Source: Microbacterium sp. ACRRU (GTDB lineage Bacteria; Actinomycetota; Actinomycetes; Actinomycetales; Microbacteriaceae). From it: DNA of 64,000 nucleotides. This document shows positions 6,578 to 53,245 of this stretch, one piece after another. The first letter of the stretch is position 1. The number at the start of each line of letters is the position of its first letter. The position numbers and the translations under genes are program-made. Below the pieces are notes generated by a model, which was given only the letters and a program-made list of their open reading frames with translations, was not told the DNA's origin and searched no databases. The DNA lies in NCBI RefSeq assembly GCF_022346945.1, contig NZ_JAKRNI010000002.1, forward strand, positions 62,001-126,000, read 5' to 3'.

Positions 6578-7630
6578 GTGCACGACGAGGACCTTTCTGG
6601 GGCGGAGAGGGAGCAGGACGCGGTGCGTGCGGCGAGACGAATCCGCGCGACCCGTCGAGGGCTGCTCGTCGGAGGGCTGGCGCTGGTCGCCCTGGGCGGA
6701 GGGGCGCTGCTCGTGCGTCAGATTCGTCGCAGCGGTGGTCCCGCCCCCGCGTGGACGCCTCTTCGCGCGATCACTCCTCCTGACGCGCCCGCCGCCCTGT
6801 CTCCCGCCGTCGAAGCCCCGGGGATCGACACGGCGATGATGGTCTGGGCGCACGCCGACGACGACATCATCTTCGCCAACCCCGGACTGGCCGATGCGAT
6901 CCTCAGCGGGGCGACCGTCCGCGCGGTCTACGTCACCGCCGGCGACGCCGGGAAGGGCATCGACTACGCCCGAGAGCGGGAGGCGGGGATCCGTGCCGCG
7001 TACGACGTCATGCGAGGGGGCACGGGGGAGTGGGACGAGCGGGAGATCACTCTGCTGAGCGGTGCTCGCATCACGCGATTCGTGCCGGCCGACGAGCCGC
7101 GGCTGTCGATCAGCGTCCTGCGGCTCCCCGACGGCGGGCTCGATGCTAAGGGCTTCGCGGCGACCGGCAACGCGGGACTCACGCAACTGATCAACGGCGA
7201 CGTGGCCGAACTCGTGCCCATCGACGGAGGCCCGGCGTACGACCTCCCGCGCCTCACGGCGACGCTCGCCGAGCTCCTGGCGGCCGCCGCCCCGCGGCAC
7301 GTCTGCACCAACGTGCCGCACGAGAGCGCCTACGCGCACGGCGACCACCCCGATCACTCGTGCGTCGGTTCGCTCGTTCGTGCGTCGGCGCCGGCGGTCG
7401 GCCTGACCGCGGAGAGGATGTCGTACTACCTGGGGTATCCGTCGCAGGATCAACCGGTCAATGTGACCGGCGCGGTGTTGGATGCCAAAGTCGAGGTGTA
7501 TCGAACGTATGCGGCCGACGACCCCGTCGTGCGGTGCGCGGAGGCGTCGACGTGCCTCGCCCAGCCCGGTTTCGGCGAGTGGTTGAGGCGGACGTATCCG
7601 AAGACCGAGGCAGAGCTGCGGCTGTCCTGA
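6578..7630 (+). CDS. second membrane-anchored PIG-L family deacetylase
   Basis: A 350-residue paralogue of the protein at 4684-5790, recognisably similar over the whole catalytic part (GDAGKG, RLPDG, GDHPDH, VLDAKVE.YR.YA, FG.WLRR.Y). Residues 28-46 form a membrane segment after a basic RRIRATRR stretch that could serve as a twin-arginine-like export signal. The metal motif reads AHADDD (91-96), with Ala replacing the usual Pro; the metal-ligand His and Asp residues are kept. A C-terminal C-x5-C pair again suggests an extracytoplasmic location. The GTG start at 6578 follows GAGGACGG. A strong hairpin terminator follows the gene. Confidence 0.84.
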   Translation: MHDEDLSGAEREQDAVRAARRIRATRRGLLVGGLALVALGGGALLVRQIRRSGGPAPAWTPLRAITPPDAPAALSPAVEAPGIDTAMMVWAHADDDIIFANPGLADAILSGATVRAVYVTAGDAGKGIDYAREREAGIRAAYDVMRGGTGEWDEREITLLSGARITRFVPADEPRLSISVLRLPDGGLDAKGFAATGNAGLTQLINGDVAELVPIDGGPAYDLPRLTATLAELLAAAAPRHVCTNVPHESAYAHGDHPDHSCVGSLVRASAPAVGLTAERMSYYLGYPSQDQPVNVTGAVLDAKVEVYRTYAADDPVVRCAEASTCLAQPGFGEWLRRTYPKTEAELRLS

Positions 7631-51370: not shown

Positions 51371-52372
51371 CTAGTCGGTGGCATCCGGGAGCGACAGGTC
51401 GGCCGCAGGCCACCCCGGAAGCGGGTCGTCGAAACCCGTCCAGGCTTCGGGTCCGGCCGCGAGCTCGTCGTCGGTCAGCGCGGCCATATCGAGAACGTGG
51501 CGAAGACGCGGTTCCGAGAGGTCGAGGCCGGTGAACGCGATCTCCTGCCCGAGCCCCATGCGACCGTCGTCCGTGCCGATCGGCTCGATCCACATCGCCG
51601 ACCCGACGTGTTCCCAGCGTGCCAGGATGCCGGGGCGCGAGGCCAGGCGGCAGAATCCGGCGGAACGGATGAGGCGTCCCGCGGCTCCGTCGTCGAGGCG
51701 GTCGAGCGCCGTCTGCAGACGGGCCGGGTGGAAGGGGCGCACCTGGTCGTAGCGGAGAGTGCTCACGCGGTTGTCGCGCATGTACGGGTCGTGTTCGTCG
51801 TTGAGGGCGCGGACCCAGCCCGCGCGCTCGAGGATCTCCGTCTCATCGTCTCGCGTAGTTCCGACGTGCAGGTCGGCGCGCGGGTCGCGCGTGAGCCGGA
51901 GAGTGGCGCCGGGGTTGAGGTGCGAGGCGAGCGCCATCTGCACGGCGAGGGCAGCCGTGGGCACCTGCTCCCAGTTGACCCACACGATGCGGGTGGCCAG
52001 CTCCAGCGCGAGCGCGGCCTGGCGCGCCTGCGCGCCGACGTCGCCGCGCGTGTCGCCGGGAGGGGCGGATGCCACCAGGGGAGCGTCGTCGAGGAGATCG
52101 CCGATCATGTGGCGCGCGTCGACGACGCACACCGCCTCGACATCGACCCCGCCGCGCGCACTGATCGCGTGGATCAGATCGACGTCGGTGCCGAGGTCGA
52201 CCACGACGTGTTCGTCGCTGCCGCGGGGGCGCGGGTGGGGGAGCGCGTGTGCGGCGCGGAGGTCGCGGTAGCGGAGCAGGTGCAGCGGTCGCGCGAGAGT
52301 GGCGGCGGTCCGCTCGGCGTAGGCCTGGCGTTCCGGTGCGCACACACCCATCGTCGCGATCGTCTTCTCCAC
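51371..52372 (-). CDS. COG0523/CobW-like protein lacking a recognisable P-loop
   Basis: A 333-residue protein. Its C-terminal half matches the CobW C-terminal domain: [48 protein letters not shown], and RRLRHVL-like and GFDDPLPGW segments. COG0523 proteins are GTP-dependent zinc metallochaperones. Here the N-terminal Walker A (GxxGxGKT) is replaced by [15 protein letters not shown], and the NKxD-like position reads VNWEQV, so GTP binding is doubtful. The GTG at 52372 gives a complete alpha/beta domain. It diverges from the L36 paralogue across a Zur-type box, the context of zinc-starvation COG0523 genes. Confidence 0.8.
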
Positions 52373-52419: not shown

Positions 52420-52440
52420 TGTTGAGAACGGTTATCAACA
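52420..52440. promoter_or_regulatory. Zur-type operator
   Basis: A 21-base near-palindrome, 19 of 21 positions symmetric. Its 15-base core TGAGAACGGTTATCA fits the actinobacterial Zur pattern TGA-NAA-N3-TTN-TCA. It lies 48 bases upstream of the CobW-like gene and immediately before the AGGAGG of rpmJ, so it can control both divergent transcripts. Confidence 0.78.
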
Positions 52441-52450
52441 GGAGGATGCC

Positions 52451-52573
52451 ATGAAAGTCCGCAACTCGCTCAAGTCGCTGAAGAACCAGCCCGGTGCGCA
52501 GGTGGTGCGCCGGCGCGGGCGCGTGTTCGTCATCAACAAGCTGAACCCCCGCTGGAAGGGCCGCCAGGGATAA
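52451..52573 (+). CDS. rpmJ: 50S ribosomal protein L36, zinc-free (C-) paralogue
   Basis: A 40-residue protein: [20 protein letters not shown], then [20 protein letters not shown]. The zinc-binding Cys/His ribbon of standard L36 is missing, as in the C- (YkgO-like) version made under zinc starvation so that zinc can be released from ribosomes. Perfect AGGAGG 5 bases before ATG. The overlap of a Zur-type box with its leader supports zinc-repressed expression. Confidence 0.92.
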
Positions 52574-52600
52574 CGGAAACGACAACCGTTCCCGATTACC

Positions 52601-52622
52601 TGAACACATTGCAATTCGTTTA
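52601..52622. promoter_or_regulatory. candidate SmtB/ArsR-type operator
   Basis: TGAACACATTG-CAATTCGTTTA is an imperfect 22-base palindrome (16 of 22 symmetric) centred on TTGCAA, 22 bases before the ArsR-family start. It resembles the TGAA-N-TTCA half-sites of SmtB-type operators and is AT-rich compared with its surroundings. Confidence 0.5.
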
Positions 52623-52643
52623 TGCAGATGGTGCTCTGGAGGT

Positions 52644-52952
52644 GTGGACAGGATCGCGGGACTCGACGAAGCCGCTGAGCTGTTCAAGGTCCTCGGCAAC
52701 GAGTCGCGTCTCGCGCTCGTCTGGCTGCTGAGCCGCGAACCGCTCACGGTCGGTGCGCTCGCCGCTCGAACCGGCCTGTCGCAGCCCCTGGTGTCGCAAC
52801 ACCTGCGGACGCTGCGCCAGGCGGGTCTGGTGAGTTCGGAACGCGAGGGGAAAGAAATCCGGTACGCCCTCGCCGACCAGCACGTCGCTCACGTCGTGCT
52901 CGATGCGATCGCCCACGTCCAAGAACCGAAGGATCAGGGGAACGAGCGATGA
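52644..52952 (+). CDS. ArsR/SmtB family zinc-sensing repressor
   Basis: A 102-residue winged-helix regulator. The recognition helix is in VGALAARTGLSQPLVSQHLRTLRQAGLV (36-63). The last helix carries D78-x-H80-x10-H91-x2-E94, exactly the alpha-5 zinc site of SmtB/CzrA-type sensors, so zinc (possibly Co/Cd) is the expected inducer. No alpha-3N cysteine site is present. GTG start with GGAG directly upstream. The stop overlaps the next ATG (ATGA), coupling it to the histidine-rich protein, its likely target. Confidence 0.88.
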   Translation: MDRIAGLDEAAELFKVLGNESRLALVWLLSREPLTVGALAARTGLSQPLVSQHLRTLRQAGLVSSEREGKEIRYALADQHVAHVVLDAIAHVQEPKDQGNER

Positions 52953-53245
52953 GCACCACCGAAACACACGCCGAGCACACCGTCACCGAGCACGCGCACG
53001 GCGACGACTGCGGCCACCAGAAGATCGAGCACGGCGACCACGTCGACTACGTGCACGGCACCCATCATCACGCTCTGCACGGCGACCACTACGACGAGCA
53101 CGAGTCCAAGGCCGAACACGGACTCGACGAGCACGCACACGGCGACGATTGCGGTCACGAGACGGTCCCGCACGACGATCACGTCGACTACGTGCACGAC
53201 GGGCACCGCCACGCCCCGCACGACGACCACTACGACGAGCACTGA
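52949..53245 (+). CDS. histidine-rich metal-binding protein with internal duplication
   Basis: A 98-residue protein with 26 His and many Asp/Glu, no membrane segment and no signal peptide. It is built from two similar halves: HAHGDDCGH at 15-23 and again in the second half, each followed by HVDYVH and HYDEH. The repeated HAHGDDCGH offers His2-Cys-type zinc sites, two Cys in all. Proteins of this type are common in Actinobacteria, sometimes mislabelled zinc transporter permease, and have no proven function. Coupling to an SmtB-type sensor suggests a cytosolic zinc buffer or chaperone made under zinc excess (inference). Confidence 0.82.
   Translation: MSTTETHAEHTVTEHAHGDDCGHQKIEHGDHVDYVHGTHHHALHGDHYDEHESKAEHGLDEHAHGDDCGHETVPHDDHVDYVHDGHRHAPHDDHYDEH

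Follow-up and report, generated by a model that had tools for sequence, protein, structure and literature searches.

Zur and SmtB-type sensors have mostly been studied at different promoters, and they normally act in opposite directions. Several described systems bear on the locus analyzed here. The zitB gene of S. coelicolor encodes a zinc exporter and is activated by Zn-Zur, whose box is separated by 8 nt from a -35 hexamer, TTGCCC, downstream of it; the transcript begins 50 nt ahead of the initiation codon (PMC5472717). The activation is repeated in the accessible text of a 2018 review (PMC6103462). Zn-Zur also activates bmtA, a metallothionein/metal-buffer gene of Synechococcus WH8102 (PMC9337993, available text), and NmtA of Anabaena is under SmtB-type repression by AzuR (PMC8790569, available text). 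The smtB-zur operon of M. smegmatis is repressed, not activated, by Zn-Zur, and its net output is constant; an SmtB motif could not be confirmed there by the authors, and the term histidine-rich is not used in the paper (PMC7174638).

The locus lies in a stretch of 64,000 nucleotides from Microbacterium sp. ACRRU, referred to here as the window (Table 1). Like zitB, its arsR-hisR operon is actinobacterial, has a candidate Zur box a short distance ahead of a TTGC-type -35, and is predicted to be expressed at high zinc. It differs in that no SmtB-type operator is described in the available part of the zitB report, that the box is 14 nt instead of 8 nt from the -35, and that zitB specifies an exporter whose transcript has a leader, whereas the transcript here is predicted to be leaderless. 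In M. smegmatis SmtB and Zur act on one promoter, as is proposed here, but the mycobacterial promoter drives the two regulators themselves with constant net output. With bmtA and AzuR-NmtA the operon would have in common a small metal-buffer protein under Zn-Zur activation or SmtB-type repression; in the portions of those reports that were available each system has one sensor, and its product is a Cys-rich metallothionein instead of a protein of His-rich repeats. The preliminary description of the locus held that the responses to zinc starvation and zinc excess are usually at separate loci, a generalization to which the mycobacterial smtB-zur operon is a known exception (PMC7174638, available text). 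The genes, the composite promoter element with its conservation, and the domain fusions described below can be read from the DNA itself.

Table 1. Features of the zinc locus, in window coordinates.
Feature	Position	Strand	Remarks
COG0523/CobW-like gene	51371..52372	-	GTG start, 333 aa, divergent from L36B
Zur box TTGAGAACGGTTATCAA, low-zinc arm	52422..52438		15-bp core 13 nt before L36B start
rpmJ paralogue, Cys-free type-B L36 (L36B)	52451..52573	+	NCBIfam PRK00831 above cut-off, 0 Cys
arsR-hisR composite promoter as a whole	52580..52643		
Zur-like box CGACAACCGTTCCCG of composite promoter	52580..52594		7/10 vs TGANAANNNTTNTCA; 14 nt upstream of -35
SmtB-type operator CTGAACACATTGCAATTCGTTTAT (candidate), -35 inside	52600..52623		family consensus ATAAACATATTGCAATATGTTTAT
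-35 hexamer TTGCAA (predicted)	52609..52614	+	alignment of arsR upstream DNA
-10 hexamer TGCTCT (TNNNNT, predicted)	52632..52637	+	TGG before hexamer (extended -10)
arsR, SmtB-type repressor, 102 aa	52644..52952	+	GTG start 6 nt after -10
hisR, 98-aa His-rich protein (HisR)	52949..53245	+	ATGA overlap with arsR stop at 52949

Gene neighbourhood and the low-zinc arm

The order of the four genes is conserved in one group of Microbacterium, and part of it recurs in other genera. A search of genome contigs with HisR returned 72 loci, and 25 of these form a close group in which HisR is at least 84% identical to that of the window (the window, L012-L014, and L020-L040; L013 and L034 are probably one record). 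The order COG0523-like gene, L36B, ArsR, HisR is kept in 24 of the 25, the window included, and the exception is L014, which is without ArsR at this place. Three of the 16 other genomes of the genus that were searched have HisR, and the adjacency is not general in the genus. Conservation beyond the strain, which the preliminary description had made a test of its proposal, is thus found in the close group but not genus-wide. Among the 51 loci L041-L091, L36B lies within about 5 kb of ArsR-HisR or HisR in seven, which are from other genera (L043, L048, L049, L059, L063, L066, and L075). Orders and orientations differ in these loci, and L36B is mostly accompanied by a COG0523-like gene; elsewhere the surroundings of ArsR-HisR are varied. 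The number of such proximities expected by chance is 0.13, and the computed probability is about 1e-10, assuming 45 independent loci with 10 kb around each and genomes of 3.5 Mb that carry a single L36B; the loci are related, so the true chance is higher than this figure. Chance adjacency is rejected on the conserved order together with the recurrence in other genera. Adjacency to L36B and the COG0523-like gene is a feature of one group within Microbacterium, and it turns up again outside that group.

In L014 (7278-7838) ArsR has been lost and HisR is found directly 3' of L36B. Because of this position, hisR might be read from the Zur-controlled promoter in that locus.

The COG0523-like/L36B pair has the features of an ordinary low-zinc arm. 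The Zur palindrome reported earlier between the two genes is present, and the L36 protein, described earlier as zinc-free, is of type B without Cys. A canonical L36 with Cys and His is also encoded in the genome. With at most one mismatch allowed, the 3.14-Mb genome contains the pattern TTGANAACNNTTNTCAA three times, and the reversed control pattern has 0 matches there. One place is 52422-52438 in the window; of the others, one adjoins a znuA-like gene and one separates divergent metal-ABC-like genes (all these genes were named by eye from their open reading frames). A Fur-family gene about 3 kb from the znuA-like gene is taken for zur. Upstream of L36B, 26 of 32 regions have a 10/10 match to TGANAANNNTTNTCA, and the L36B boxes stand 13-19 nt before the start codon, a position that would suit repression. 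The window's low-zinc box also agrees 10/10 with the Zur consensus, which is common to the znu-like sites of the genome, and the low-zinc arm is therefore ordinary. Judged by its perfect box, the pair is a predicted Zur-repressed unit of the usual kind.

The COG0523-like protein is less typical. Its Pfam match is to the CobW C-terminal domain only (CobW_C, 6e-9), with no cobW N-domain up to E=1, and the ZigA and MRF models match it far below their cut-offs. Homologues are present in 31 loci, among them L020, L043, L049, L059, L063, L066, and L075. The P-loop motif is absent from the window's protein and, in whole frames, from the L36B-linked proteins of 30 of 32 loci, the window counted; two Cryobacterium copies (L059 and L075) have kept it. 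The protein lacking the P-loop is therefore not a typical COG0523 GTPase, and it is possible that GTPase function was lost in these relatives of ZigA/MRF.

The composite promoter of arsR-hisR

Alignment of the DNA upstream of arsR shows a composite element on which the preliminary description was silent. That description linked a low-zinc arm and a high-zinc arm through their proximity. Every feature that it named is present where it said, and its interpretation is supported in part: the conserved gene string and its recurrence favor such a link, but a stronger connection is the Zur-like box within the promoter of arsR-hisR itself. From its upstream end the element consists of a Zur-like box (15 bp), a spacer of 14 nt, a -35 within a palindrome, a spacer of 17 nt, a -10, and the start codon. 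Of 70 ArsR upstream regions, 62 passed a residue filter, which overlooked such cases as DLFK and RIFK variants and the ArsR of L014, an unrelated protein. The element was anchored on the operator in 50 of the 62, with an operator score of at least 18 of 27. In these 50 loci a palindrome resembling ATAAACATATTGCAATATGTTTAT has the -35, usually TTGCAA, at its center. The -10 is TNNNNT, with the first T in 45 loci and the last in 47. An in-frame start codon follows 6 nt (28 loci) or 7 nt (21 loci) after the -10, for a total of 49 of 50, and from this spacing a leaderless mRNA is predicted. The hexamers and the leaderless start are thus predictions from aligned DNA. The palindrome has a mean of 8.0 of 12 complementary pairs over the 50 loci, compared with 3.7 in shuffles. 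It covers the -35 ahead of ArsR's own gene and is a candidate ArsR operator, and the window's genome has one match to it.

The Zur-like box occupies a fixed position. Outside the window's group it is found at the same place (+/-1 nt), with at least 7/10 matches to TGANAANNNTTNTCA, in 24 of 27 loci; 2000 dinucleotide shuffles scored alike averaged 0.28 such loci and never exceeded 4. The 27 include close relatives, such as three Agreia, so that these counts are not independent events. Three of the 27 (L045, L048, and L054) have no box at the expected place. At the exact offset the 50 loci score 7 in 21 cases, 8 in 16, 9 in five, and 4 or less in eight, so none is perfect and the best is 9/10. 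The box of the window's group starts with C and mostly scores 7-8; the window's own box resembles most of its group in scoring 7, and one of its bases is unique to it.

The imperfect box raises the question of whether ArsR alone controls the operon, the box being a weak relic or another protein's site that is of minor importance at least here. The window's score of 7/10, the operators without a box in L155 and L157, and the lack of a box in this arrangement in loci of other lineages would all fit. On the other hand, the box columns in 23 close loci have a mean identity of 0.96, compared with 0.78 for the preceding 16 nt and 0.56 further upstream. The box is also at one place in 24 of the 27 diverse loci, and it moves with the promoter and not with L36B (L024, L028, L035, and L038 versus L020). 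Control by ArsR alone is considered quite unlikely, and a probable Zur site is the preferred interpretation of the box.

Two further candidates were considered. An L36B terminator is not the cause of the conserved box, since the box stays with the promoter in L024, L028, L035, and L038, where L36B ends about 270-300 bp before arsR. The box is probably not a second ArsR operator, as the two motifs differ.

The element is also found directly before hisR. Twelve of the 62 regions are below the operator threshold of 18, and eight of these carry the element before hisR by a looser criterion (L041, L043, L064, L077, L080, L081, L082, and L085); in L017, L040, L070, and L072 it is absent there or was not found. 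The criterion is an operator of at least 15 of 27 and a box of at least 6 of 10. Among 21 loci in which arsR is downstream, separate, absent, or unanchored, 13 have such an element immediately ahead of hisR (L041, L043, L061, L064, L077, L079-L085, and L087). The box scores at least 7 in nine of the 13, and five reach the operator threshold of 18, with the others at 15-17 of 27. It was not found before hisR in the remaining eight (L014, L017, L070, L072, L073, L074, L075, and L050, the last of which could not be placed).

A search with the operator half only gave a similar association. With up to two mismatches allowed, 198 genomes of the order contained 18 sites in 17 genomes, and the reversed operator gave no match in the table. 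Eleven of the 18 sites precede arsR and/or hisR, and the box scores at least 7 in nine of these (six of eight when previously used loci are omitted); it is missing in L155 and L157. The other seven sites have neither gene in the stretch around them, and their box scores are 5 or less.

Additional Zur-like sequences were observed near some of these promoters. In the window's group a conserved half-site-like GATAACG precedes the Zur-like box by 12 bp and is perhaps a half-site for further Zur dimers; in the window it is at 52569-52575 and overlaps the L36B stop codon. In L016 (6990-7130) a perfect Zur box at approximately 7017-7031 lies between arsR and a divergently oriented gene, whose 1037-aa frame specifies a large protein.

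Promoters in other lineages are different. In these loci other palindromes were seen before hisR, among them those of L118 and L121, which resemble ACATCGCGATGT, and no box was seen in this arrangement. A perfect Zur box is nevertheless present in L130 and L137, at less than 1 kb upstream from the His motif. The family as a whole is therefore not characterized by the two-sensor promoter. A CGCG-centred palindrome, not the TTGCAA one, was noticed by eye before hisR in L070, L072, L115, L118, L121, and L122.

ArsR and the histidine-rich protein family

The ArsR protein has a winged-helix domain (HTH_5, 8e-15 in Pfam; HTH_metalloreg, 4e-27 in NCBIfam), and its relatives in the PDB include SmtB, CzrA, and NmtR. 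The preliminary description was exact about its alpha-5 site, which consists of D78, H80, H91, and E94, and about the overlap of its gene with that of a 98-residue protein with 26 His. The site, in the form DxHx10Hx2(E/H), is found in 67 of 70 ArsR copies. Beyond it the C-terminus has no further His; NmtR uses such C-terminal His.

HisR represents an uncharacterized family of His-rich proteins. In addition to its His residues it has 2 Cys, and it has no match in Pfam or NCBIfam up to E=1. It consists of two repeats of about 48 aa, identical at 32 of 48 positions. An alignment of 42 chosen two-repeat copies, not all loci, has 101 columns, 36 of them invariant, and 22 of the invariant ones are His. 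The His residues are spaced with an 8-residue rhythm (13 pairs compared with 6.2 in random placements), and an AlphaFold model, which is weak (pLDDT 65, pTM 0.41), has short strands at a rhythm of about 8 residues. The module is found in 37 of 296 Actinomycetota genomes. BLAST of HisR against plasmids gave no match, which is uninformative because BLAST masks low complexity. HisR is not a small Cys-rich protein with CxC and CxxC motifs like the metallothioneins. Searches of the open-licence literature turned up no paper on the family, also when three of its peptides were used as text queries.

The His module is also fused to other domains. It forms the C-terminal tail of permeases in L018, L019, L086, L089, and L090, and the ABC-3 (ZnuB-type) domain was confirmed in L018, L086, and L089. 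HisR shares the module with these tails but is free-standing and doubled and belongs to an ArsR operon; the permease domain itself is not in HisR (0 Pfam hits). HisR-like proteins are often labelled zinc transporter permease in databases. Zur-like genes follow permease-His-module fusions in L113, L117, and L135. In L133 and L138, both near an ArsR gene, the module carries a Cys-rich tail that is metallothionein-like. In Kibdelosporangium (L074, 4305-4907) it is joined to an ArsR domain that lacks the alpha-5 site, and this fusion adjoins a second HisR gene.

The neighbours and fusions suggest a role in metal buffering. In the phylum search, which covered 29 non-window loci, ArsR is nearby in 15. 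A Zur/Fur-like match is near six, three of them strong and three at 30-33% identity, and a ZnuB-like match occurs in six, three of which are the fusions themselves. Seven of the 29 are without ArsR, Zur/Fur-like, and ZnuB-like genes, and one of the seven (L132) has L36B. From the fusions and these neighbours, the best guess is that HisR is a metal buffer, most likely for zinc.

Other functions were considered for HisR. His- and Asp-rich sequences can bind nickel, and HisR could be an Hpn-like store for nickel or cobalt. It could also be a zinc chaperone, supplying enzymes or receiving zinc from the importer, and not a buffer for surplus. The presence of HisR-type tails on ABC-3 permeases suggests contact with incoming zinc and so favors such a role. 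The ArsR site argues otherwise, as it is SmtB-like (D/H/H/E) with no further C-terminal His, and so do the neighbours found elsewhere, which are Zur-like, ZnuB-like, and zinc-free ribosomal genes. These alternatives are considered improbable, and the buffer for surplus zinc is retained.

Proposed regulation and its significance

The fixed geometry of the element across many genera supports a zinc-surplus function for the operon. In the main reading, arsR-hisR responds to zinc surplus under repression by apo-ArsR and with probable assistance by Zn-Zur, and HisR is the zinc buffer; its probability is put at roughly 0.55. At low zinc, apo-ArsR would sit on the palindrome over the -35 and keep the operon off. 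Zinc bound at the alpha-5 sites would release ArsR from the DNA. Zn-Zur at the box, a short distance ahead of the -35, would leave RNA polymerase unobstructed and would most likely promote transcription. The operon would then be on only when ArsR is off, with zinc high, and Zur is loaded with zinc, which amounts to a coherent AND. With its His-rich repeats HisR would buffer or store zinc in the cytosol, as a functional equivalent of metallothionein. We infer the identity of the metal, the binding of Zur and ArsR, the positive sign of Zur, and the buffering.

The sign of Zur action is the point on which the main rival differs. Zn-Zur probably assists transcription of arsR-hisR by analogy with S. 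coelicolor zitB. The rival is antagonistic double repression, in which ArsR represses at low zinc and Zn-Zur at sufficient zinc, so that the output is steady or peaks at intermediate zinc. There is a precedent in the smtB-zur operon of M. smegmatis, where both regulators act on the promoter and output is constant (PMC7174638, available text). In addition, the Zur-like box and the operator are adjacent, with 24.5 bp between their centers, so that the two proteins could exclude each other. However, the box is upstream of the -35, a position at which the zitB authors argue that polymerase is not inhibited (PMC5472717, available text). The L36B boxes, which are expected to be repressive, are instead close to the start codon. 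Double repression is judged an unlikely explanation, and activation combined with derepression is favored.

A more specific proposal can be made tentatively. It is that a Zn-Zur activator and an SmtB-type repressor over the -35 form an AND gate on a leaderless operon whose His-rich product belongs to a new zinc-storing family. If so, zinc would be banked only when the sensors of scarcity and surplus both report plenty.

The component families are of known kinds. Searches of the open-licence literature turned up no fixed Zur/SmtB composite promoter on an operon for a His-rich buffer protein. The presence of both candidate sites with near-invariant spacing in many genera makes the integration of scarcity and surplus at one gene directly testable. 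The locus is a natural system in which to ask if actinobacterial Zur activates beside a repressor site. It also points to an uncharacterized, widespread His-rich family that is fused to zinc importers, to ArsR, and to metallothionein-like tails.
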